From a virus: a stretch of DNA of 25,515 nucleotides. Shown in pieces: positions 11,923 to 23,037 of the stretch. Where the stretch lies: positions 1 to 25,515 of IMG/VR virus record IMGVR_UViG_3300028384_000646; one strand, 5' to 3'. Every line of letters starts with the position of its first letter. Positions within the stretch are counted from its first letter, which is position 1. The notes beneath the pieces are model-generated. The model searched no databases. It was not told where the DNA came from and saw only the letters and a program-made list of their open reading frames with translations. The position numbers were made by a program, and so were the translations under genes.

Positions 11923-12215
11923 GATGTTGTCACCGTAACTGAACCAACCCCACCTGTCCCAGCAGATCCACGAACATGAGGTTTATTGCTTAATGTAATC
12001 TTAACAAAACCATCCTGTTGAAACAATGCCCCTGTTTCAAGGTCATAATCGTCCGTTTGCAGGTCCGTTAGAGTCAGCCGTGTTGCACGGTCCTCCCCTG
12101 GGTTTTGTTGCTGCTGCATATATGTAGCAAAACTCCGCGTTAGGTTCGCGAAGTATGCTTGGTCGTATTCTAATGGAGGGACCGCAAAGTAGGGAAGGAT
12201 CTGGTTCCGAGACAC
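11919..12215 (-). CDS. Small tail/virion protein ending in a VGSVTVTTS strand
   Basis: A 98-residue protein starting at GTG 12215, which overlaps the preceding TAG by one base. A short helical N-terminal half (Q-A-Y-F-A-N-L-T-R-S-F-A-T-Y) is followed by beta-rich sequence (T-L-T-D-L-Q; F-V-K-I-T-L-S-N-K) and a glycine-rich end, G-T-G-G-V-G-S-V-T-V-T-T-S. That ending closely resembles the end of the 100-residue protein at 24350-24652 and the repeats of the protein near 22146-23037. Placement directly after the nozzle-like protein suggests a tail or head-completion component. No enzymatic motif is seen. Confidence 0.72.
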   Translation of the reverse strand: MSRNQILPYFAVPPLEYDQAYFANLTRSFATYMQQQQNPGEDRATRLTLTDLQTDDYDLETGALFQQDGFVKITLSNKPHVRGSAGTGGVGSVTVTTS

Positions 12216-14125
12216 TATCGCCTCCCGTCAGGCCGGATATCCAACCTTGGTGATCCTAACCTCCAGCCTACGCCACTGTCATCTGACTCTACCCGCATGG
12301 CAAAGCTACGCCCACGCAAACGCAGATGCACTTGGTCGGTAAACTGCTCAACAGGAACAGACGCAGACTTGGTGATCGCCTTCTCTGTAGACTGCAAATA
12401 ATCCCCACCAGGGAAGTTGCGGGTCTTGATTGTAAAGTTTGCACTCGGGCTTTCTGCCGTAGAATCACGGAACGTCAGGTCGGGTATCAACCGTTTGATA
12501 AATGCAAACTGGTCGCCGTCGCCAATGTCGATCTGACTAGACTCGATATAAGCTGTGATTGCAGATCCGTCGCCATCGAACCCCGACTCCTGTGTGTACA
12601 AATAATTGCCTGGTCCCGCCGCAATCGGATTATCGAAAATACCACGATCCATCCAAGCTGTACGAGGCAGTGTGCCATAGTACCAAACCTGCTGTTGGTA
12701 GTTGTACACAACATAGCGATCATTCGTGTCGCTGCCCGAAGACGGATAGAACCACCAGACCTCAGAGAACGCCGTGTTTGTTGACGCTACGATCTTTTCA
12801 CGTTGGTTCAAGTTGATGTCGTCAAAGACGTAATCCCGTACGGTACAAGGCAAACGCTGCACTGTACCACCGTAAACATAGAACTCTTGCTGGCCCATCC
12901 AGAACACGTTGTCCTCGACCGCTGCCGCACAAAGCGGACCCATCGTCGTAATGTTCTCTGAAATGTGGTTCACACCAAAGGTAAATGGCGGTCCTAAAAA
13001 CTGCATCGCGTATAAGCTGTCGTCCGTGAACACCAAGATTTGTTGGCGTGTCTCAACAGCCATAACAATCTCGGACCCAGAACCAAGGCGCAACTCCCCC
13101 GCAGTATTGGTCGCAGTCGCTGCCCAATCGGTCAAAGATTCTTGGGACGAGAACCGGATAGCCAACGGATCCTGCACACCAGGATTTGCCTCCGTATCAC
13201 AACCAAATGCAATAATGTGACGATCACGGTCTGACACCAGAACCTGCTTTGCAATCGTAGGTGTAGCATTTGCCCCTGACAAAGATGCAAGTTCCACGGC
13301 ACGAGAAGTAAGGCCCGATGTCTTATCCCAATAGTAAATGTCGCCGTTACGGACGTTGATCAGTAGGTCCTCACCAAAGTTATCGTGTGTCCAAACACGA
13401 AGCGTGGACGTAACAATAGGGGTTGATGCGGCAGATCCCCATGCGCCACGGCCCCAGAAACCGACACCCCAACCTGCACCAAAAGCAGAAGTATCAAGGC
13501 CCACGTTTACTTGATAGGCACCCACGCAAGCCGAACCACCGTTACCTGTGTCTGAACCGTCAGCATCTACTTCAGTAGGCGTAAGCACACCATCGACGGT
13601 GATATCTTGCAACGGGGTGTCTGCTGTCCGGGCTGTGATTGTATAGTTGTTATCGTCTATGATTTCAGTGATGTTATACTCTTGGTTCAATACACCTGCT
13701 GTGATGTTGCCACCAAGACTTACTGCATCGCTAAACGTAACAAAGTCATTGACCACCGCACCGTGATTAGAATCTGTCACGGTAATTGTGGAAGAACCAC
13801 TTGTTGCAGAAAAGGTTACATCTCCCGCAGCCGTAGTAGTACGAATAGGAGTAATGTCGTTATACAGACCACCATCTTGGTTGATGTAGTACTTGAGACT
13901 TGTGCCGATACCGATCAGGCGACTATTGTCCAAGGTTGACCAAGGATGCATCGCACGAGCAGAACCAAGGTACGAGGCCCCAGAAAACTTCTCCCACCCA
14001 CCAATCTTTTCAGGCATACCAAAGCGAAAACGTACTTTGTCTACATCGAACCATCCACCTTCGTTAGTATAAGAAGTGGTTTCTCTGTTTACGCCCGGCT
14101 TGAACTGGAGTTTGGTGAGAGGCAT
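12215..14125 (-). CDS. P22 gp10 / nozzle-like tail stabilisation protein (probable)
   Basis: A 636-residue beta-rich protein. The N terminus has a marine-phage structural signature (K-P-G-V-N-R-E-T-T, then V-R-F-R-F-G-M-P-E-K-I-G-G-W). Residues about 96-190 form a small beta domain (N-I-T-E-I-I-D-D-N-N-Y-T-I-T-A). A tryptophan/glycine-rich motif follows (G-W-G-V-G-F-W-G-R-G-A-W-G, 218-230). The rest reads as repeated beta blades (R-H-I-I-A-F-G; Q-I-L-V-F-T-D-D-S-L-Y-A-M; R-Y-V-V-Y-N-Y-Q-Q-Q-V-W). Blade pattern, size and position in the virion block resemble podoviral stabilisation or nozzle proteins (P22 gp10, T7 gp12), which seal DNA in the head and carry the tail. The assignment rests on pattern, not alignment. 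The spacer of about 26 bases upstream is the longest in the window and carries AAGGTGGT before the ATG. Confidence 0.78.
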   Translation of the reverse strand: MPLTKLQFKPGVNRETTSYTNEGGWFDVDKVRFRFGMPEKIGGWEKFSGASYLGSARAMHPWSTLDNSRLIGIGTSLKYYINQDGGLYNDITPIRTTTAAGDVTFSATSGSSTITVTDSNHGAVVNDFVTFSDAVSLGGNITAGVLNQEYNITEIIDDNNYTITARTADTPLQDITVDGVLTPTEVDADGSDTGNGGSACVGAYQVNVGLDTSAFGAGWGVGFWGRGAWGSAASTPIVTSTLRVWTHDNFGEDLLINVRNGDIYYWDKTSGLTSRAVELASLSGANATPTIAKQVLVSDRDRHIIAFGCDTEANPGVQDPLAIRFSSQESLTDWAATATNTAGELRLGSGSEIVMAVETRQQILVFTDDSLYAMQFLGPPFTFGVNHISENITTMGPLCAAAVEDNVFWMGQQEFYVYGGTVQRLPCTVRDYVFDDINLNQREKIVASTNTAFSEVWWFYPSSGSDTNDRYVVYNYQQQVWYYGTLPRTAWMDRGIFDNPIAAGPGNYLYTQESGFDGDGSAITAYIESSQIDIGDGDQFAFIKRLIPDLTFRDSTAESPSANFTIKTRNFPGGDYLQSTEKAITKSASVPVEQFTDQVHLRLRGRSFAMRVESDDSGVGWRLGSPRLDIRPDGRR

Positions 14126-14151: not shown

Positions 14152-16599
14152 CTAACTTTGTAGCAGATATTGCGGTTCCCCACTTTGGTTTGTAGAAACA
14201 GAGCCGATAATGTCTATTGAGGCAGGGTTAGTGTCGGCTACAGAGCCTCTATTCTCTAAGGAGAACGCAATAGCTTGACCGCCTGTTTGCTTGAAGCCAG
14301 CGATAGATACTTCTTCGTCAGGGTGGTAAACGAAATTTGTGACACCTACAGTGCTTGTATCTAAAGTGAATGACGAACTTATGTCTGTTAAATCAGTGCC
14401 TGAAATAGAGGCCGTAACATAATACGCACCACCTGTTGCGTAGAAGAACACCGCTTTTTGCTTAGACACATCATAAACAACTCTTGGATTTGATGTTGAA
14501 GCGTTGTTTATAGTAGCTACTGTTCCAAATGAGATTGATGTCCCAGAAACTGTGCCTAATACAGCTTTACCTTTATCACTGTCTCCGCCATCTTTGAATG
14601 CCACAATAACTTTATTATTTGTACTGTCGTAAGCTATATTAGTATCTTCCGTTGAAGAAGCAGAAAAAGTTGCAGCAGTACCAAAGCTCAAAGATGTTCC
14701 TGAAACGGTGGCTACAAGAGCCTTTCCATAGTTATTATCGTTGTTATCCCTATACGCTATTACAACTTTCTGAGCGTTTACATCATAAACAGGAGCAATA
14801 TAATTTGCATTGCCACTATCAAATGTTGCTGGAGTCCCAAAAGAAATTGAAGTTCCACTTACCGTACCTACTCTTGCCTCACCATCGGCATTTGTATTGT
14901 CACGATAAGTTACAACAACCTTTCCTGCATTCTCATCAAAAACCGCTTTATTGAACTCACTATTAGCTGAATTGTAGACAACAGGCGTCCCAAAGCTAAT
15001 GGAAGTCCCGCTTACTGTTCCGACTGCCGCCATCCCATAATAAGAATTGCTTGCATTCCTTGACACTACAACAACCTTATTATTTGTCGTATCATAAGTT
15101 ATTCCTGTCCAAGATGTTTCTCCGCTTTGGAAAACAGCAGGTGTTCCAAAGGTAAGAGTTGTTCCTGATACAGTGCCGACTACAGCATAGCCGTAATAAG
15201 GGCTTGCTGAGTAAGTATAACAAATAATTATCTTTTGCGTATCTGGATCATAAACAGAACCAGTAATTTCATTACCTAGTGTGTTGGAGTCAAATGTAGT
15301 TTTTGCTCCTGTTTCGCCTGCGACAACCACCCCCCTAGACATACCAATGTAGTTCTCTGCGGTGAGGTTAGGCACAGAACCCCCTGCTTGGTAGACAACG
15401 GCGTCTCCAGAAGTTGTTGAATTGTCTAGGTAGGCAATTACAGCTTTTTTAGAAGAAGCGTCATAACCCACCCCTGTTTGACCGCTGTTACTATTATTAA
15501 ACACAAACTCAGAGTCAAAACTAATACTTGTGCCACTTACTGTACCTGAAACAACAGTTCCATAATTTGAATTTCCATTATCTCGGTACGTTATCAGTAT
15601 TTTCTTTACATTGGCATCATAGGCCGCTCCAGTATGATTATGAGCGGCACTATTCCAAACTACGGGTGTCCCAAAACTAATAGAAGTGCCGCTTACAGTG
15701 CCAACGGCAGCGGTTCCATAATTTGAATTACCTGCGTCACGATAAGCAACTACTACTTTAGATGCGTTAGAGTCATAAGCGATAGCCATATCAGACACAA
15801 CTGCGCTTTCAAACTTTGTCTTAGACCCAAAACTAATAGAAGTGCCGCTTACAGTGCCTACAATGCCATAGCCATGCTCAGAGTCTCCATAAGTGGAAAA
15901 ACATATAACGGTTTTTTGAGCATCTGAATCATAAACAATTTGAGGATGTTGACTTCTTGCTGATTCGTAAACAACCTCTGAGCCAAAACTGATGCTTGTT
16001 CCACTTACTGTGCCTACAATAGCCGTACCATAGTTTGAATTACCCCAATCTTCATAAGCTATAACAACTTTTCCTGCCCCTTCATCAAAACCGATTGAAA
16101 CATGCTGAACTTCATAAGCATTAAAAACTGTTTCTGATCCAAAGGTAATAGAGGTACCACTTACATCTCCAACAATAGCATATCCATATCTTGATCCTTG
16201 ACTATTCGCATAAGCTATTACTACTTTGTTATTAACAGAGTCGTAAGTAGCATCTGACCATTCTACGTTTGTTGACGTAAATTGTACGGGCGTACCAAAA
16301 CTTATAGAGTTGTTACTTGCATTAACCGTTCCGACTACAGCGTGACCCCTATTAGAATCGGCGGTATCTCTATAAGTTACAACAATCTTTTGAGCGTTGC
16401 TGTCGTAAACAACCTCGTTTTCACCAGCAGTCGTAGCATCATAAGTAACGGCTGTACCAACTGCTTCGGTTACAGATGTCTCACTAACAACACTCACAGT
16501 CCCATCTGCATTCACAACCACAGGCTTGCCGTTGGGTAACGTGCCGCTTGCTACTGCTTTAAACTCACCTTCCTGTTCGCCGCCAATAACCTTGAGCAT
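14152..16599 (-). CDS. Tail adhesin candidate with two predicted seven-bladed beta-propellers
   Basis: An 815-residue protein. A short N-terminal module shared with the two upstream paralogues (A-V-A-S-G-T-L-P-N-G-K, N-A-D-G-T-V-S-V-V) precedes seven repeats of about 52 residues. Each repeat shows an [AV]-[YF]-D-x4-K-[VI]-[VI] strand, a Y-[GR]-D-x-x-[NG]-S-x-Y-G turn and G-T-V-S-G-T-S-I-S-F-G. A connector N-L-T-A-E-N-Y-I-G follows, then seven more repeats. The paralogues' C-terminal Y-Y-V-Q-T-D-G module is absent and the protein ends instead with a short unrelated tail (S-G-E-P-Q-Y-L-L-Q-S). Seven blades per set suggest two propeller domains, plausible for binding a host surface glycan or protein. 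The gene is visibly A+T-rich. Function is inferred from position and architecture. Confidence 0.82.
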   Translation of the reverse strand: MLKVIGGEQEGEFKAVASGTLPNGKPVVVNADGTVSVVSETSVTEAVGTAVTYDATTAGENEVVYDSNAQKIVVTYRDTADSNRGHAVVGTVNASNNSISFGTPVQFTSTNVEWSDATYDSVNNKVVIAYANSQGSRYGYAIVGDVSGTSITFGSETVFNAYEVQHVSIGFDEGAGKVVIAYEDWGNSNYGTAIVGTVSGTSISFGSEVVYESARSQHPQIVYDSDAQKTVICFSTYGDSEHGYGIVGTVSGTSISFGSKTKFESAVVSDMAIAYDSNASKVVVAYRDAGNSNYGTAAVGTVSGTSISFGTPVVWNSAAHNHTGAAYDANVKKILITYRDNGNSNYGTVVSGTVSGTSISFDSEFVFNNSNSGQTGVGYDASSKKAVIAYLDNSTTSGDAVVYQAGGSVPNLTAENYIGMSRGVVVAGETGAKTTFDSNTLGNEITGSVYDPDTQKIIICYTYSASPYYGYAVVGTVSGTTLTFGTPAVFQSGETSWTGITYDTTNNKVVVVSRNASNSYYGMAAVGTVSGTSISFGTPVVYNSANSEFNKAVFDENAGKVVVTYRDNTNADGEARVGTVSGTSISFGTPATFDSGNANYIAPVYDVNAQKVVIAYRDNNDNNYGKALVATVSGTSLSFGTAATFSASSTEDTNIAYDSTNNKVIVAFKDGGDSDKGKAVLGTVSGTSISFGTVATINNASTSNPRVVYDVSKQKAVFFYATGGAYYVTASISGTDLTDISSSFTLDTSTVGVTNFVYHPDEEVSIAGFKQTGGQAIAFSLENRGSVADTNPASIDIIGSVSTNQSGEPQYLLQS
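15670..15858. repeat. 33-bp perfect direct repeat between adjacent propeller blades
   Basis: Bases 15670-15702 and 15826-15858 are identical. The starts are 156 bases apart, exactly 52 codons, the blade length. They encode the G-T-V-S-G-T-S-I-S-F-G strand of neighbouring blades. Recombination between them would add or remove one blade in frame. Confidence 0.9.
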
Positions 16600-16602
16600 G
16601 TG

Positions 16603-18843
16603 CTACCCTTTCACGATAAGTTTGGTTGCAGATACAGCCGTGCCAGCGAATACGCTTGGGTCACCCGCCGTTGTACTTAGTGTGCCATCTGTTTGAACGT
16701 AGTAACTTTGACCAGCGGTTAAGTCGGTCAAAATTGTGTATTGAAAAACACTGTCGTTTGTAAATCCTAAGATATACATTTTAGAACCATCAGACTTAAA
16801 CTTAGGCCCACGGCTTTCCCCATCCTCTGAGATTGCAAAAGAAACATCAGCATACGAACCTGTGCTTACATCATACGCAGTCGTAAGGTCATACCTAGAA
16901 ACGTTATCGTTAAACGATCCAGTTATAAACAACTGCGTTCCGTCAGAGTTAAATTCTACGCCTCTTGGCTCACCTTCTTCTGTTCCGACACTTAAACTTT
17001 TACTAGCATATGATGCTGAAGAAACATCCCAAGCTGTGCTTAACGTGTATTCAAATATCGCATTGCTTACGTTTCCTGTGACATACATTTGAGTGCCGTT
17101 TGGATTAAAAGTTACGCCTTGTGGCGAAACATCTTGTGAAGACACGCTAAAAGCGACTGTAAAAGATGCCGTGGACACATCCCATGCCGTACTTAATGCG
17201 TATTCATTTACCGCATCACTAGATGTTCCAGTAATAAACATTTTAGTGCCATCAGTTTTAAACGCAATATCCTGTGCGGCTGTTTCTTGACCACTGTAAC
17301 TGAAACTTTTGCTTGCATAAGATGCAGTCGATAAATCCCAAGCGGTGCTTAAAGTATACTGGTAAACCGTATTATTTTGACTGCCGCCAACATACATTTT
17401 GGTTCCATCTGCGCTGAACGCAAAGGCTTGTGGGGATTCATCTTGAGATGTCACGCTAAAGCTAACACTGTCATAAGACGCATTAGCAATATCATAATAA
17501 GTCACTGGTATATCAGACACGTTACCCTGCGTATTCACAACAACGCCATCGCCATCCGCTGCGCCTGACTTGGCTGTGCCGATGTAGTTTTCAGAGGTGA
17601 GGTTTTGTGAAGTGTAGGCATTTTGGAAAACAGAGTATGTACCCTTACTTGAATTACCTTGATCCACATACGCAAACACTACAGTCTTGGTGTCAGGATC
17701 ATAAGCCGTCCCGTTCCATGCTGTTGAAGCTGCCTCAAAAACAAAAGGTGTTCCAAAAGTAATTGTGGCACTTGACGCATCAACAGTACCCACAGCACCT
17801 GTGCCGTAGTAAGAATTTGTTACATCACTGTATATAACAACTACTTTTTGTGCATTTGGGTCATAGGTTGCTGACTGTAAATAAATATTAGATTGCTCGT
17901 AAACAACGGGACTTCCAAAAGTAATCGAACTCGCACTAATTGTTGCAGTTACCGCAGTTCCATAGCCTGAGTTCCCACGATCTGCGTAGAAAACAGCGTG
18001 TGCTTCCTGATCGCTGTCATACGCTATAGCAATGTCTTCTACGTCAGCAAATTCAAAAGTTGTAATTCCGCCAAATGTAATGTTGGCCGAACTTACCGTC
18101 CCTACAATTCCCTGCCCATAACCAGAAGTGTTAAAGTTTCTCCAAAGAATTAAGTGCTTTTGCACTGAAGCGTTGTAAGAAACCGTTGTAAAATCACTTC
18201 TGGAAGAATTAAAGACTTGAGGTGTTCCAAAAGAAACCGTCGATCCATCTGTATTAGCAACAACCGCAGTGCCGTAATCGTTGTTTCCGTGATCCCTATA
18301 AACAATTACAGTCCGACCATTCGGTGGATTGTAAGCAATAGAAATGTAAGAAGTTAAACCGTTGCTATTAAAAACAGCAGGTGTGCCAAAGCTGATTGAC
18401 GTACCTGAAACAACCCCTGGAACGGCTGTACCATAACTGGAATTAGCGTTGTCTCTATACGCTACGAGTATAGCACCAACACTTTCATCAAAGGCACCTC
18501 TTATCCTTGTAGTTGTACCACTTTCAAAAACAACAGGAGTGCCAAAGCTAATAGATTGACCACTTACTGTACCAACTACCGCAGTCCCGTAAGATGAATT
18601 GTTATTATCACGATAAAGCAAAACAACCTTGTCATTCGTTGTATCGTAGACAGCATCGACGTGAGTAGTCCCGCCGGGCGTAAATTCTGCTGGCGTACCT
18701 ACGCTTTGAGAAACATTTGTCTCTGCCACAGCACTCACAGTGCCATCAGAATTAACTACAATAGTATCCCCCGTGGACAGCGTACCACTGGCGACAACTT
18801 GTGTCTGTCTTGGTGTATTGGGATCATTACCAATGATACGCAT
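16603..18843 (-). CDS. Chimeric tail adhesin candidate: seven-blade propeller plus five YVTN-like repeats
   Basis: A 746-residue protein. The N-terminal module (Q-V-V-A-S-G-T-L-S-T-G-D-T-I-V-V) and seven 52-residue repeats match the paralogues on both sides and are closed by N-L-T-S-E-N-Y-I-G. From about residue 455, five repeats of about 50 residues of a different family follow, each with F-[SKN]-x-[DN]-G-[TS]-[KQ]-[ML]-[YF] and a [YF]-x-L-[ST]-T-A-[WY]-D-[VL]-S turn, as in YVTN/NHL-like propellers. The end is L-T-A-G-Q-S-Y-Y-V-Q-T-D-G then the L-I-V-K-G terminus shared with the 475-residue paralogue. This is a clear fusion of two repeat families. It is probably a virion surface protein; the receptor is unknown. 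The V-K-G codons also form the ribosome-binding site of the next gene. Confidence 0.82.
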   Translation of the reverse strand: MRIIGNDPNTPRQTQVVASGTLSTGDTIVVNSDGTVSAVAETNVSQSVGTPAEFTPGGTTHVDAVYDTTNDKVVLLYRDNNNSSYGTAVVGTVSGQSISFGTPVVFESGTTTRIRGAFDESVGAILVAYRDNANSSYGTAVPGVVSGTSISFGTPAVFNSNGLTSYISIAYNPPNGRTVIVYRDHGNNDYGTAVVANTDGSTVSFGTPQVFNSSRSDFTTVSYNASVQKHLILWRNFNTSGYGQGIVGTVSSANITFGGITTFEFADVEDIAIAYDSDQEAHAVFYADRGNSGYGTAVTATISASSITFGSPVVYEQSNIYLQSATYDPNAQKVVVIYSDVTNSYYGTGAVGTVDASSATITFGTPFVFEAASTAWNGTAYDPDTKTVVFAYVDQGNSSKGTYSVFQNAYTSQNLTSENYIGTAKSGAADGDGVVVNTQGNVSDIPVTYYDIANASYDSVSFSVTSQDESPQAFAFSADGTKMYVGGSQNNTVYQYTLSTAWDLSTASYASKSFSYSGQETAAQDIAFKTDGTKMFITGTSSDAVNEYALSTAWDVSTASFTVAFSVSSQDVSPQGVTFNPNGTQMYVTGNVSNAIFEYTLSTAWDVSSASYASKSLSVGTEEGEPRGVEFNSDGTQLFITGSFNDNVSRYDLTTAYDVSTGSYADVSFAISEDGESRGPKFKSDGSKMYILGFTNDSVFQYTILTDLTAGQSYYVQTDGTLSTTAGDPSVFAGTAVSATKLIVKG
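16606..16611 (-). promoter_or_regulatory. Shine-Dalgarno (AAAGGG) embedded in the V-K-G terminal codons
   Basis: The last codons of the 746-residue paralogue (GTG AAA GGG TAG) contain AAAGGG six bases before the ATG of the 815-residue paralogue. The same layout recurs at 19118-19123. Confidence 0.6.
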
Positions 18844-18853
18844 GTGCTAGTCC

Positions 18854-19111
18854 TTATTCTACAGTCTCAGGGTCAACCCAATCAGGGTTTAGCGTCCATG
18901 TTGTTCCGTCGAAGGTGTACTTGTTGCCTGACCAATCCGCAGGAGCGTTTGTCACGTTCTCTGTGATTGTCACTGTGCCACTGTTTAAGTCGCCAATGAT
19001 GAACTGCGCGGGATCGCCAACAACGATGTTATCTGCGTTGCTTGTGATTGTTACGTCATCCTCAAGCAAATACTTACTTAGACCTGTTGATGTTTCTACG
19101 ATGGTTTTCAT
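18854..19111 (-). CDS. Small hypothetical virion-cassette protein
   Basis: An 85-residue acidic, beta-rich protein (D-D-V-T-I-T-S-N-A-D-N-I-V-V; G-T-V-T-I-T-E-N-V) ending in an aromatic segment F-D-G-T-T-W-T-L. I recognise similar small proteins from marine phage tail-fibre neighbourhoods but know no function. It lies between two propeller paralogues, its ATG preceded by AAAGGA formed by the last codons of the upstream paralogue. It may be a fibre-associated cap, chaperone or decoration protein. The base composition is less A+T-rich than that of its large neighbours, which suggests the three large genes had a separate history. Confidence 0.68.
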   Translation of the reverse strand: MKTIVETSTGLSKYLLEDDVTITSNADNIVVGDPAQFIIGDLNSGTVTITENVTNAPADWSGNKYTFDGTTWTLNPDWVDPETVE

Positions 19112-19114
19112 GTC

Positions 19115-20542
19115 TTATCCTTTCACCAAGATTTCCGTAGATGATATTGCTGTGCCAGCTTCCACCGATGGATCAGCGGCAGTTAAGCCCAATGCTCCAT
19201 CCGTCTGTACATAATACTTCTGACCAGCAGTTAAACTTGTTTGGCTGCGATCCACAGTGCAAGTCGTGTTAATCACTGCGCTCTGCGTGTCTGCGTATGC
19301 GCCATCAGCAAAGCCTATGAAGTTGTCTGAGGTGAGGTTGGTTGATGGTGCTTGGTAGACGACAGCATACCCATCAACATTTTTGTTTAGTATGATTACA
19401 TTTGACTCACTCGTAGCGTCATAAACAATTCTTTGATTGTAAGATACAGTGCCAGTATCTACTGCTGTCGTAGAGCCAAAAGATATAGTAGTACCGCTTA
19501 ATTCTACAGGTACAGCAGAAGTTCCACCACTTCCATCTTTAAAAGCAATAATTGTCTTACCTGCTTTAGCGTCATAGGTTATCCCTAAATACTGGCTATC
19601 TTCTGTGTTAAATACTGCTTTTGTTCCAAAGGTTATGGATGTTCCGCTTACTGAACCTGCTATCGCTGTTCCATAATTGTTATTAGTTTCTTCAGCATAT
19701 GCAATAACAACATTTCCAGACGCTTCATCATAGGCTATTTGACCTCTAAAGCTATCACCAGATTCGTATGTAACTTCTGACCCCACGCTTATAGATGTAC
19801 CACTGACAGTAGCAACTCTTGCAACACCGCTGTCACCACCATTGGTTCCGTCCCTGTAAGCTATGACCATCTTATCATTGGCACTGTCATAACAAATAGA
19901 GGGGTTTTCAGCACCATCCTCAAATCTATTTACTGTGCCGTAACTAATCGAAGTACCAGAAACCGTTCCTACCCTCAAAGTCCCATCAATGGTTTGATTA
20001 TTGTTACGATAAAATAAAACTACTTTTTGGGCTGTAGAATTATAAGCTATAGAGTATTCCGTAGTGTATCCACTTTCAAATACAACTGCGGAACCATAAC
20101 TAATACTGGTTCCACTAACGGTTGCCACAATAGAAGTTCCGTAAAAACTATTACCAGAGTCCATATAGATGATTACATGCTTACCCGCATTTGCATCATA
20201 AGCTATTTGAACCCCATAAGTTGTTGATGAATTAAAAGTAGCAGGTGATCCAAATGTAATAGAAGTTCCACTAACGGTTCCAACTACAGCCTTGCCCCTG
20301 CCAACATCTTGTGGGTCTGCATATGCTACAACAATTTTTCCATTTGCGCTGTCGTAAGAGATGCCCATTGAGCCATCTTGGTCATCAAACATTACGGGTG
20401 ATCCAGAGCTTGCAGAGCTAACGGCAACCGCACTCACAGTGCCATTGGAGTTCACAATAATAGTATCGCCATTAGATAGCGCACCAGAGGCTACCGCCCT
20501 GACCTGAGCATCCTTTTGGACGTTGCCAATAGTCTTTACCAC
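19115..20542 (-). CDS. Tail adhesin candidate with one predicted seven-bladed beta-propeller
   Basis: A 475-residue protein, the simplest member of the paralogous trio. Its layout is the N-terminal module (A-V-A-S-G-A-L-S-N-G-D-T-I-I-V-N-S-N-G-T-V), seven 52-residue repeats with Y-D-x4-K and V-S-G-T-S-I motifs, the closing N-L-T-S-D-N-F-I-G, and a C-terminal module L-T-A-G-Q-K-Y-Y-V-Q-T-D-G followed by E-I-L-V-K-G. It starts at GTG 20542 behind AAGGAG (20550-20555), which overlaps the TAA of the preceding gene. It is A+T-rich compared with the neck and ejection genes. It probably forms a virion surface or fibre component. Copies of this order suggest the trio arose by duplication of this basic unit. 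Confidence 0.82.
   Translation of the reverse strand: MVKTIGNVQKDAQVRAVASGALSNGDTIIVNSNGTVSAVAVSSASSGSPVMFDDQDGSMGISYDSANGKIVVAYADPQDVGRGKAVVGTVSGTSITFGSPATFNSSTTYGVQIAYDANAGKHVIIYMDSGNSFYGTSIVATVSGTSISYGSAVVFESGYTTEYSIAYNSTAQKVVLFYRNNNQTIDGTLRVGTVSGTSISYGTVNRFEDGAENPSICYDSANDKMVIAYRDGTNGGDSGVARVATVSGTSISVGSEVTYESGDSFRGQIAYDEASGNVVIAYAEETNNNYGTAIAGSVSGTSITFGTKAVFNTEDSQYLGITYDAKAGKTIIAFKDGSGGTSAVPVELSGTTISFGSTTAVDTGTVSYNQRIVYDATSESNVIILNKNVDGYAVVYQAPSTNLTSDNFIGFADGAYADTQSAVINTTCTVDRSQTSLTAGQKYYVQTDGALGLTAADPSVEAGTAISSTEILVKG
19118..19123 (-). promoter_or_regulatory. Shine-Dalgarno (AAAGGA) embedded in the V-K-G terminal codons
   Basis: The end of the 475-residue paralogue (GTG AAA GGA TAA) supplies AAAGGA six bases before the ATG of the 85-residue gene, the same arrangement as at 16606-16611. 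Confidence 0.6.
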
Positions 20543-20553
20543 GACTGTTCTCC

Positions 20554-20928
20554 TTATGAGATTTCTTCGTAGCTCACAATTATTTCAAGGTCGTTAGCCG
20601 CACTTGCTGTCGCTGTGATCGAACGGTCTTCTTCCAAGTATAGAGCCGTGTTCTTGTCCAAAACAACAAGAGATGCATCCGCCGCAACCGAAGCCGTTGA
20701 AATCAACGAGTACGCTGTGCCGCCGCCTGCCGCCGCGCTGTGAACATCAATCGTAATGTCCGCTGCGTTTGTTCCATCGACGTTTGCAACTTGAATCATG
20801 TTGATCTTGTAAACCGCGTTGCTTGAAGCTGCGTTACTAACAAGTGTTGTTTGTGAAGTTGTAGAAAGCGCGACAGTGGCGGTCTTGCCTGTAATCGTGC
20901 TTACATTAACTATGTTTGGTGCAGTCAC
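20554..20928 (-). CDS. Small beta-rich virion structural protein
   Basis: A 124-residue protein rich in serine, threonine, alanine and valine, with alternating hydrophobic residues throughout (K-T-A-T-V-A-L-S-T; A-D-I-T-I-D-V-H-S; A-S-L-V-V-L-D-K-N; L-E-I-I-V-S-Y), consistent with a beta-sandwich. I recognise this type from marine phage genomes, where it is usually listed as a structural or hypothetical protein. It starts at GTG 20928 behind a strong AAGGAG, part of which overlaps the TAA of the endonuclease gene. The sequence around its two ends (TAAGGAGAA, then GTG 11 bases after the stop) is alike, so gene boundaries in this area share a pattern. The exact role is unknown. Confidence 0.75.
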   Translation of the reverse strand: MTAPNIVNVSTITGKTATVALSTTSQTTLVSNAASSNAVYKINMIQVANVDGTNAADITIDVHSAAAGGGTAYSLISTASVAADASLVVLDKNTALYLEEDRSITATASAANDLEIIVSYEEIS

Positions 20929-20935
20929 CTTATTT

Positions 20936-20941
20936 CTCCTT
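20936..20941 (-). promoter_or_regulatory. Strong Shine-Dalgarno AAGGAG supporting a GTG start
   Basis: AAGGAG overlaps the stop codon of the endonuclease gene and lies eight bases before the GTG of the 124-residue gene. The same TAAGGAGAA layout precedes the GTG at 20542. Confidence 0.7.
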
Positions 20942-21446
20942 ATGCGTGACGGGCGAAGTCGCCGTGAAGATTGTTTCTAGCTTTGGTCGCAGCCAAAGCC
21001 GCTTCTTCTATTGTATCAAAGTAACCGATGTTTGTGCGAATTTTATTCGCATCCACATACGCAAACCATCGCCCACTATGAGAATGCCACGAAACTCCCT
21101 TAAAACCAGAACTATTGTTTTTAAACTTCGACCGATTAGACGCATTTTCAGATGCCTCACAAGGCCGCAAATTTTCAATACGATTGTCTAAAACATCGCC
21201 ATTAATGTGGTCCAGTTGCTTTGGAACTTCACCGTAATGAAACATGTATATTAAGCGGTGAAGACGGTAGCTTTTACCATCTATCTTAACTGTTACATAT
21301 CTATGTGAACGTTTTTTAAGACTTTTGGGCCTGCATCCGATAACTGAACCAGCAAAATTTCCGTTTCCTGACGTAGTATATCGCCGAATCAGATTTCCAT
21401 CTGACCGGTAATCATAACGATCACGTAATTCAGCTTGCGTTATCAT
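20940..21446 (-). CDS. Free-standing HNH homing endonuclease with AP2-like DNA-binding domain
   Basis: A 168-residue protein. Residues 1-28 form an N-terminal element with Y-R-S-D-G-N-L-I-R-R. An HNH core follows: L-H-R-L-I-Y (62-67, H63), L-D-H-I-N-G-D (78-84, H80 and N82) and D-N-R-I-E-N-L-R (87-94). An AP2-type domain is at about 114-155 (F-K-G-V-S-W; W-F-A-Y-V; I-G-Y-F-D-T-I-E-E-A-A). This is a well-known phage mobile endonuclease architecture: it cuts a cognate site lacking the gene and is copied by repair. It sits between virion genes, in line with a selfish insertion. I prefer ATG 21446; a GTG at 21458 in overlap with the upstream stop would add four residues. No intron or intein is evident. 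Confidence 0.9.
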   Translation of the reverse strand: MITQAELRDRYDYRSDGNLIRRYTTSGNGNFAGSVIGCRPKSLKKRSHRYVTVKIDGKSYRLHRLIYMFHYGEVPKQLDHINGDVLDNRIENLRPCEASENASNRSKFKNNSSGFKGVSWHSHSGRWFAYVDANKIRTNIGYFDTIEEAALAATKARNNLHGDFARHA

Positions 21447-21454
21447 ACTTTTTG

Positions 21455-22135
21455 TCACCCAAACACGATTGCCATGGCGATTGCCTTACCAGTTGAAATT
21501 CCAGCACTACCAAAACTTAAAGTGCCGCTACCATTTGTTACCAGTGCTTGGTCTGCACTTCCATCAGATGTTGGCAGTGTAAGTGCATCTACAAAACCTT
21601 GCAAGTTTGCATCATATGCCAACACATCTGTTCCTATCGCCACGCCCAAGTTTGTACGAGATGTTCCTGCGTTTGAAACATCCGACAAGTTATTTGCCGC
21701 CAGCAACGCTCCGGACAAGGGAATCGTTGAAGTCAAATCAACTACTGCCGCACTCGCTCCTGCGCCGTCACAGTAGATAATTCCTGTGTTTCCATCGGCT
21801 ACACTGACATTAGCACCGGACCCCTGAGTAAACGTAGCAGTTTGTCCTGAGTTGTTTTTTACAAAGTACAAACGCTTTACGTCATTAGGACTAATAGTAA
21901 TCGTGTTTGTTCCAGAAGGTGTGCCCCCTAGAACAAGAACATGATACTGACCATCCGCCGTCGAACCATCGCTTGTTGTTAGCGTGTGCGTTGTTCCAGA
22001 AAGAGTAATGTCTCCGACACCTACCGCCAAACGGTCAATGATATCGAAGTTCGTATTGGTGGACGTACCCCATGTACCGGATTCGTCCCCCGTGGCGATC
22101 TTTTTTATCCCGCCGTTTGTTGTATAGGTAGCCAT
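21455..22135 (-). CDS. Tail-fibre-like virion protein
   Basis: A 226-residue beta-rich protein of a type frequent in marine phages. The N terminus has G-T-W-G-T-S-T-N-T-N-F-D, followed by repeated strand-turn units, an F-V-K-N-N-S-G-Q-T-A-T-F segment, then a fibre-like region with L-A-A-N-N-L-S-D-V and A-G-T-S-R-T-N-L-G-V, a signature I associate with phage tail-fibre repeats, and a hydrophobic glycine-ended terminus (A-M-A-I-V-F-G). It lies upstream of the endonuclease and the propeller cassette, so it is probably a tail-fibre or fibre-attachment component. The exact partner is unknown. AAAGGT lies before its ATG. Confidence 0.8.
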   Translation of the reverse strand: MATYTTNGGIKKIATGDESGTWGTSTNTNFDIIDRLAVGVGDITLSGTTHTLTTSDGSTADGQYHVLVLGGTPSGTNTITISPNDVKRLYFVKNNSGQTATFTQGSGANVSVADGNTGIIYCDGAGASAAVVDLTSTIPLSGALLAANNLSDVSNAGTSRTNLGVAIGTDVLAYDANLQGFVDALTLPTSDGSADQALVTNGSGTLSFGSAGISTGKAIAMAIVFG

Positions 22136-22145
22136 GTTTTTACCT

Positions 22146-22568
22146 TTACGCTGCTATCTCAGTCCAAATTGTTCCAGGTGTTGGTCCCTCTTCGGTCCAT
22201 GTATCTCCTCCTGAAGGAGTCACTGGCGTCCAAGACGTTCCTGGATCTGGAATAATGTTACCATAAACTAGCACAGAACCAACTGTTGCGCTAGAACTAA
22301 GACCCGTCACGTTTACAATGGCATCCGCCTCTGCGGAAACAGCACCCACGGAAGCAGTTGCCAAAATACCAATGTTGTTAACAGGTACACGTTGCGCGGT
22401 TATGAGCGTAGGTGTACCAACCTCACCTGTACCTGCAACCCCTGTAAGATCAAGAGTGGAGTCTCCAATAATAGAAGGCTCAGTAACGCCACCTGTAGCA
22501 GCGATTCCTGTCACATCTACATCAACACCAGCACCCTCGATGATTGTAACCGAACCAACATTGCACAT
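22146..22568 (-). CDS. Downstream part of a repeat-rich virion protein, shifted frame
   Basis: About 140 residues that continue the protein at 22522-23037 in another frame. The repeat theme V-G-S-V-T-[VI]-x-E-G-A-G-V resumes immediately after the junction (N-V-G-S-V-T-I-I-E-G-A-G-V). Further degenerate copies follow, ending in a threonine/tryptophan-rich tail with T-W-T-E-E-G-P and T-I-W-T-E-I-A-A. The frame is open further upstream to an ATG at 22649, but those first 27 residues look like shadow translation of the upstream frame, so I start it at 22568, where homologous sequence begins. The frame change is +1 relative to the upstream part. It could be an indel error, recent decay or recoding. 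Confidence 0.6.
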   Translation of the reverse strand: MCNVGSVTIIEGAGVDVDVTGIAATGGVTEPSIIGDSTLDLTGVAGTGEVGTPTLITAQRVPVNNIGILATASVGAVSAEADAIVNVTGLSSSATVGSVLVYGNIIPDPGTSWTPVTPSGGDTWTEEGPTPGTIWTEIAA

Positions 22569-23037
22569 AAGCATTGATAATAACATCAACACCGTTGATC
22601 GCGGTTGTACCAACCAAGGTCGCCGTGATTGGAACCGTGACCCCCGCACCCTCTACAACAGTGACAGATCCAACCGCCGTTGTAGCTACAAGACCCGTTT
22701 GCGGAATGTTTTGATCAGTGCGTAGTGTTACATCACCAACCGTACCTGTGCCTTCAACACCGACAACTGTTACGTTGTTGTTGCCTTTGGCAATTACAGA
22801 GCCTACCGCTGTTGTAGCTTCAAGACCTGTAAGAACAATCGAGATGTCTTCACGAACAACAGCCGTTCCGACCTGCCCCTGTAAGGCATCAATAGTGGAC
22901 GCTTCCCCGCCCCAAGCGGTGTCGCCAAACCCTAACTCACCCCAACCGTTGAGCGTATGGCCCACACGAACGGGGAGTGCTTCGCTCCAAGCACCCTCGC
23001 TCCATGTTCCACGACCCCAACCGTTGATGTTCGCCAT
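22522..23037 (-). CDS. Upstream part of a repeat-rich virion protein with tryptophan-rich N terminus
   Basis: A 171-residue frame; the reconstructed full protein would be about 297 residues. The N terminus is tryptophan/glycine-rich (N-G-W-G-R-G-T-W-S-E-G-A-W, later G-F-G-D-T-A-W-G-G). Repeats of about 25-30 residues follow, with T-G-L-[EV]-A-T-T-A-V-G-S-V and V-E-G-A-G-V. Sense ends near residue 157; the last 15 residues (from Y-V-Q-C-W-F) appear out of frame, and the repeats continue in frame 22146-22568. AAGGGG precedes the ATG. Similar W-rich starts occur in marine phage structural proteins. It is probably a tail or capsid surface protein; no catalytic motif is present. Confidence 0.65.
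   Translation of the reverse strand: MANINGWGRGTWSEGAWSEALPVRVGHTLNGWGELGFGDTAWGGEASTIDALQGQVGTAVVREDISIVLTGLEATTAVGSVIAKGNNNVTVVGVEGTGTVGDVTLRTDQNIPQTGLVATTAVGSVTVVEGAGVTVPITATLVGTTAINGVDVIINAYVQCWFGYNHRGCWC

Follow-up and report, generated by a model that had tools for sequence, protein, structure and literature searches.

The analysed DNA, hereafter the window, is the whole of positions 1-25,515 (25,515 bases) of IMG/VR virus record IMGVR_UViG_3300028384_000646. It comes from a marine virus of bacteria and carries three tandem paralogous genes, here called P0003, P0002 and P0001 and occupying gene positions 1, 2 and 3, whose products each contain seven repeats of about 52 residues (type A) set inside a small frame domain. 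The repeats are predicted to close into a seven-bladed beta-propeller; among relatives, the flanks that make up the frame are locked to gene position, and the propellers move freely from one position to another. We think it probable that the three genes supply a tail-fibre tip with three places, in which position-locked frames carry interchangeable propellers that probably bind glycans. The features of the three genes are as follows.

19115..20542, minus strand: P0003, 475 amino acids, position-1 paralogue with a GTG start; a single predicted seven-bladed propeller inside the frame domain (open reading frame and repeats).
20411..20542, minus strand: N-terminal half of the P0003 frame, residues 1-44, ASGxLxxGDxxxVNxxGTVS (alignment of relatives; joined to the C-terminal half in propeller-free proteins).
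19352..20410, minus strand: predicted P0003 propeller, seven repeats, residues 45-397 (repeat hidden Markov model, HMM).
19313..19339, minus strand: NLTSDNFIG of P0003, residues 402-410, apparent resumption of the frame domain (alignment and propeller-free proteins).
19118..19351, minus strand: C-terminal half of the P0003 frame, residues 398-475 (alignment, frame HMM and Pfam comparison).
16603..18843, minus strand: P0002, 746 amino acids, position-2 paralogue; predicted seven-bladed and five-repeat propellers (open reading frame, repeats and model).
17626..18705, minus strand: predicted P0002 propeller, seven repeats, residues 47-406 (repeat HMM; predicted local distance difference test score, pLDDT, 94-97; Z 32.8 to YncE).
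17578..17604, minus strand: NLTSENYIG of P0002, residues 414-422, apparent resumption of the frame domain (frame HMM and propeller-free proteins).
16726..17469, minus strand: five repeats of a second type (type B) in P0002, residues 459-706, predicted to form a second propeller within a later frame loop, ahead of LTAGQ (type-B counts in relatives; insertion site).
14152..16599, minus strand: P0001, 815 amino acids, position-3 paralogue; two predicted seven-bladed propellers; frame domain incomplete at the 3′ end.
15376..16467, minus strand: predicted P0001 propeller 1, residues 45-408 (repeat HMM, units 47-405; Z 32.2 to YncE).
15343..15369, minus strand: NLTAENYIG of P0001, residues 411-419, apparent resumption of the frame domain (frame HMM and propeller-free proteins).
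14245..15318, minus strand: predicted P0001 propeller 2, residues about 428-785, inserted after NLTAENYIGMSRG (repeat HMM and model).

A first-pass annotation of this stretch had counted seven units of about 52 residues in the 475-, 746- and 815-residue proteins, followed at once by NLTx[ED]N[YF]IG, and repeat splitting and a repeat HMM confirm the count; about 5-10 residues separate the last unit from NLTSDNFIG in P0003, NLTSENYIG in P0002 and NLTAENYIG in P0001. P0002 continues beyond its first block with five type-B repeats of about 50 residues, and P0001 with a second block of seven (431-785), of which the HMM detects six; the seventh is degenerate, and the model has a full ring. For comparison, about 240 loci were assembled from five viral-contig scans, one genome scan and two annotated phage records; in one viral collection at least 522 places match type A. 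Among complete type-A open reading frames (177 proteins, 188 blocks), 142 blocks hold seven repeats and 27 hold 14, and when total repeats are counted per protein over 162 clusters of relatives (80% identity), 123 have seven, 26 have 14 and one has 28. Since block counts of 7 and 14 dominate in relatives, we conclude that the seven-repeat count is not due to chance. Seven repeats are found as well on three cellular-looking contigs (L165, L167 and L168); bacterial and archaeal matches in general lie mostly on metagenome-assembled contigs that are possibly viral. The true exceptions to seven seen are proteins of loci L245 and L213, with six near-identical copies each, through either a deletion or a collapse in assembly; in several distant members the repeats are detected only in part. 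An apparent eighth repeat in L230 was discarded as a 3-bit false match, the true count being seven. Type-B blocks in complete reading frames of relatives number five repeats in 111 cases, ten in 10 and 15 in eight. That the counts keep to seven and five, or to multiples of these, argues for closed rings, which demand such numbers; open solenoids do not.

The largest type-A protein, at L162:3430-10488, has 2353 residues and 28 repeats in four blocks of seven, on a contig that is labelled as a Euryarchaeota metagenome-assembled genome and may be viral. Marine viral contigs are rich in type-B proteins, which have 5, 10 or 15 repeats and are often encoded by several genes in tandem, and type-B repeat proteins are present in Roseobacter phages CRP-13, CRP-9 and CRP-738.

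The seven-bladed propeller proposed in the first-pass annotation is backed both by this census, in which counts vary in just a few six-copy cases, and by two high-confidence AlphaFold2 models, neither of them a solenoid. The models, of P0002 and P0001, were built from input alignments of window and viral-contig relatives and have mean pLDDT values of 88.3 and 85.9, respectively, with values above 90 across most of the propellers. Structural alignment to seven-bladed proteins covers residues 44-412 of P0002 and 43-408 and 428-784 of P0001. The fold matches include YncE (Z 32.8 for P0002, with 308 residues aligned at a root-mean-square deviation of 2.5; Z 32.2 for P0001), the Photorhabdus PLL lectins are among the best of them (Z about 30-31; PLL4 lectin, Z 31.6), and all 286 residues of the designed seven-bladed protein v13WRAP-T align with the model. 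By prediction, then, the seven-repeat block of P0002 and both blocks of P0001 are closed rings of four-stranded blades that align over their full length with solved seven-bladed structures. The repeat register suggests that the first unit gives a strand absent from the last, as is usual in the closure of propeller rings. The five type-B repeats of P0002 are predicted, from the counts and the whole-protein model, to form a five-bladed ring. No sequence relationship was detected to YncE, the PLL lectins, virginiamycin B lyase or v13WRAP-T, and no Pfam propeller model (WD40, YVTN or Kelch families) matches the type-A repeats above its cut-off; the type-B part of P0002 has a weak SGL match below the Pfam cut-off. 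The Pfam family Cyclophil_like2 (PF18050) does score above cut-off in P0003 and is seen in 11 of 31 relatives; because the P0003 overlap is a 33-residue repeat fragment, we treat it as a chance match to one blade.

Variability within the repeat peaks at positions 10-20 (the D-A loop and the start of strand A) and at positions 33-40 (the B-C loop), and is lowest in the C-D turn, SGTS. In propellers, the D-A and B-C loops lie on one face, which is commonly used for binding, and it is this variable face that most likely binds host surface glycans. The propellers might instead be enzymes, lyases or hydrolases of surface polysaccharides, and not simply heads for binding: the fold matches include virginiamycin B lyase (Z 31.4-31.9) and a rhamnose-glucuronate lyase (Z 28.4), and tailspike enzymes are common in phages. 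We consider this very unlikely, as no enzyme family gave a convincing sequence match (a single stray GH32 match, E 0.007, in one of 31 relatives), conservation within the repeat looks structural, and variability is highest on the presumed top face, whereas an active site would be conserved.

The segments that flank the propeller have the consensus ASGxLxxGDxVxVNxDGTVS before it and NLTxENFIGxA...LTAGQxYYVQTDGTL...AGTAxSATxLxVKG after it. When both flanks were joined into one HMM and searched against all proteins, the contiguous frame was found free of any propeller in L201:9788-10258 (140 bits, E 3e-42) and in residues 255-360 of an L169 protein (115 bits). Because such contiguous versions exist, we regard the propeller as an insertion in a small host domain, and NLTx[ED]N[YF]IG would be the point at which that domain resumes. 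The first-pass annotation had suggested that this closing segment was a clasp or the start of the next domain. The former does not hold, the segment lying outside the ring, after the last blade, as the second part of the interrupted frame; the latter came nearer, except that what begins there appears to be the remainder of a split host domain and not a new one. Further insertion sites are evident. In most of the 14-repeat proteins among those listed, the second propeller follows NLTxENYIGMSxG, and in P0002 and two relatives among the matches listed a type-B ring stands ahead of LTAGQ; a small domain is thus seen to accept whole propellers in several of its own loops. In two position-2 genes, L003:7042-8619 and L014:8832-10478, the same frame encloses a different, unrecognised cargo, about 400 residues long and without a match to the type-A model.

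Frames without a long N-terminal part occur as exactly three genes in tandem in 23 of the 31 loci where they are enclosed on both sides. The relation of frame to position was examined in 29 non-identical triplets in which copies 1 and 2 are separated by the 200-320 base gap of an 85-residue gene. For 93% of N-terminal and 96% of C-terminal flanks, the closest relative from any other locus holds the same position (33% by permutation, p 0.0005); for the propellers the value is 34% vs 33% by permutation (p 0.49). In an alignment of 31 single-propeller proteins, the identities of the two flanks are correlated (0.76, Mantel p 0.0005), and propeller identity is uncorrelated with either. Recombination of propellers across positions is visible in the DNA of two pairs. 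The propeller at position 1 of L015 is 97% identical in amino acids, and mostly 97-100% in DNA, to that at position 2 of L021, with flanks at 28-60%, and the propellers at position 2 of L001 and position 1 of L003 are 86% identical in amino acids. That frames are fixed to gene position and heads exchanged freely between positions and viruses is, we believe, well supported.

Placement of these proteins on the tail draws on their neighbours and on relatives of other architectures. The genes adjoining or lying within the cassette are the following.

18854..19111, minus strand: gene of 85 amino acids that separates the first two paralogues, probably encoding a chaperone of tail-fibre assembly (relatives and likeness to ICBM2 gp48).
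12215..14125, minus strand: gene directly downstream of the cassette, with 'phage stabilization' and virion structural proteins among its relatives (phrog_3287, E 1e-76).
20554..20928, minus strand: conserved gene of 124 amino acids directly upstream of the cassette (58 loci have a match, with identities of up to 93%).

The relationship of the downstream gene to virion structural proteins places the cassette in a virion-structure region, and ejection- and structure-type genes come after it. Thirty-seven relatives have long N-terminal parts, or stalks, several of which match PHROG tail-fibre families (E 4.7e-27 and 4e-14); in these tail-fibre-type proteins the same module forms the C-terminal end. 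The L201 protein starts with an Mtd_N domain, followed by the propeller-free frame. Matches to the 85-residue gene occur in 102 loci, at up to 95% identity, and mostly start no more than 60 nucleotides downstream of a frame gene; the product of the gene is 42% identical to gp48 of Lentibacter phage vB_LenP_ICBM2, which is annotated as a tail assembly chaperone or tail fiber protein in two records. The ICBM2 homologue comes after the type-A gene gp49, in a region assigned to the tail-fibre module (PMC6775973).

A location on the head has also to be weighed, with the frame related to phage cement proteins and the propellers displayed from the capsid as cell- or mucus-binding lectins. The frame resembles Phage_cement_2 (PF09956) collinearly over most of the profile, including across the insertion point, with E values of 0.0057-0.02. 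Every one of these matches falls below the curated Pfam cut-off, however (best 16.9 vs 24 bits), and, unlike cement proteins, the frame holds inserted propellers and apparently sits on fibres: the C-terminal module of stalked relatives, the Mtd_N domain ahead of the frame in L201 and the resemblance of the 85-residue neighbour to an annotated tail-assembly chaperone all speak for the tail. We judge a capsid location unlikely.

We think it probable, then, that a tail-fibre apparatus has its tips encoded by these three genes. In each protein, one loop of a small beta frame domain would hold a seven-bladed propeller, other loops being able to take an extra one, either seven-bladed or five-bladed. 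Being specific to gene position 1, 2 or 3, the frame halves, NLTx[ED]N[YF]IG included, most likely secure each protein to a docking place of its own, whether on the tail or on one another, with help from the 85-residue chaperone-like protein; the N-terminal peptides, short and poorly ordered in the model (pLDDT about 36), may suit docking. The propellers would be interchangeable heads that recombination moves between positions and between phages, and the virion would display three or more specificities at once.

The first-pass annotation had left it open whether the paralogues are alternative or combined receptor-binding proteins. Stalked relatives and the chaperone-like neighbour lend its receptor-binding premise a tail-fibre context; that the triplet is fixed points to combined rather than alternative use. 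We put forward as a tentative idea that the three position-specific frames assemble into one hetero-oligomeric tip, giving combinatorial receptor recognition by head exchange, in which a phage population would mix and match three independent propeller specificities on a fixed holder with three places. A variant of our preferred reading, which we take seriously while holding it to be short of an even chance, is that the paralogues form three separate fibres or serve different virions as alternatives. In ICBM2, every one of the distinct propeller fibres has an assembly gene of its own after it, and L215 and L228 each have three stalked fibres in tandem. The stalk-less genes, by contrast, stand together as a fixed triplet that has position-specific flanks and a single chaperone-like gene, and no invertase or reverse transcriptase was found among matches of the window proteins scanned. 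Stalked frame genes are single in 15 loci and triple in three.

Several points weigh against a three-place tail-fibre tip bearing glycan-binding heads. The propeller fold is a predicted rather than a solved structure, and phmmer and profile searches gave no sequence match to any solved lectin, PLL chains included. Gene positions were assigned by gene order in metagenomic contigs. The triplet is not universal, a single gene being detected in ICBM2, L222 and L245 and two in L039. Finally, the likeness of the frame to a capsid cement domain would fit a location on the head too.

In their predicted seven-bladed ring of four-stranded blades, the type-A proteins resemble the PLL lectins, many entries of which align at Z about 30-31. 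They differ in having about 8-13% identity in structural alignment with no sequence match, in being phage proteins with the propeller inserted in a frame domain, and in that their glycan binding is putative. As in the domain shuffling of modular phage receptor-binding proteins (PMC10684548), attachment parts are fixed and recognition parts exchangeable; here, unlike there, what is exchanged is an entire propeller within a domain, and it moves among three frames that are locked to position. That paper makes no mention of propellers; beta-propellers are discussed in a paper on the host-recognition device of Staphylococcus phage phi11 (PMC4901313). Another system close to this one is gp47-gp55 of ICBM2 (Zobellviridae, Cobavirinae; PMC6775973), a fibre module with a distant type-A protein (gp49), a type-B protein (gp51) and a homologue of the 85-residue protein, although the ICBM2 fibre genes are diverged, have assembly genes of their own, form no triplet and are annotated as hypothetical. 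Among phage isolates, type-A matches are limited to ICBM2 and one single-cell marine virus, so there is no cultured close relative, and in the literature on propellers in marine receptor-binding proteins we found nothing on the type-A family. We consider the family to be uncatalogued seven-bladed propellers, well supported in fold and modularity and most likely located at the tail-fibre tip.

Receptor-binding proteins of marine phages are mostly unannotated, and the type-A module is both recognisable and common. It follows a simple grammar, of fixed frame, fixed gene position and free head. If it is true that the heads bind different glycans, host range might be read from the heads and traced as they move between phages.

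At its 3′ end, P0001 differs from its relatives within the last frame motif.

14152..14182, minus strand: end of P0001, where the reading frame is lost (compared with the consensus of relatives).

The protein departs from the consensus after NQSG, and the LTAGQ...AG portion is missing; another frame reads TAISATKLVVKT and then a stop, like the ends of relatives, which are intact. The change is either a natural lesion or an assembly error. The N-terminal flank of P0001 is poorly modelled, as would fit a folding together of the two frame halves.

The G+C content of the cassette is 0.41-0.45, vs 0.50-0.55 in the part of the window with the early and replication genes. An HNH endonuclease gene (20940-21458) adjoins the cassette; among the fetched loci its only relative (62% identical) is in L245, where it adjoins the frame gene with six near-identical repeats. 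The gene at 21455-22135 is a conserved upstream gene with relatives in 53 loci and a weak resemblance to tail-fibre families. At 22146-23037, open reading frames of 171 and 167 amino acids overlap in different frames and share a similar short repeat rich in valine and glycine; a frame change may have split a single gene into the two.

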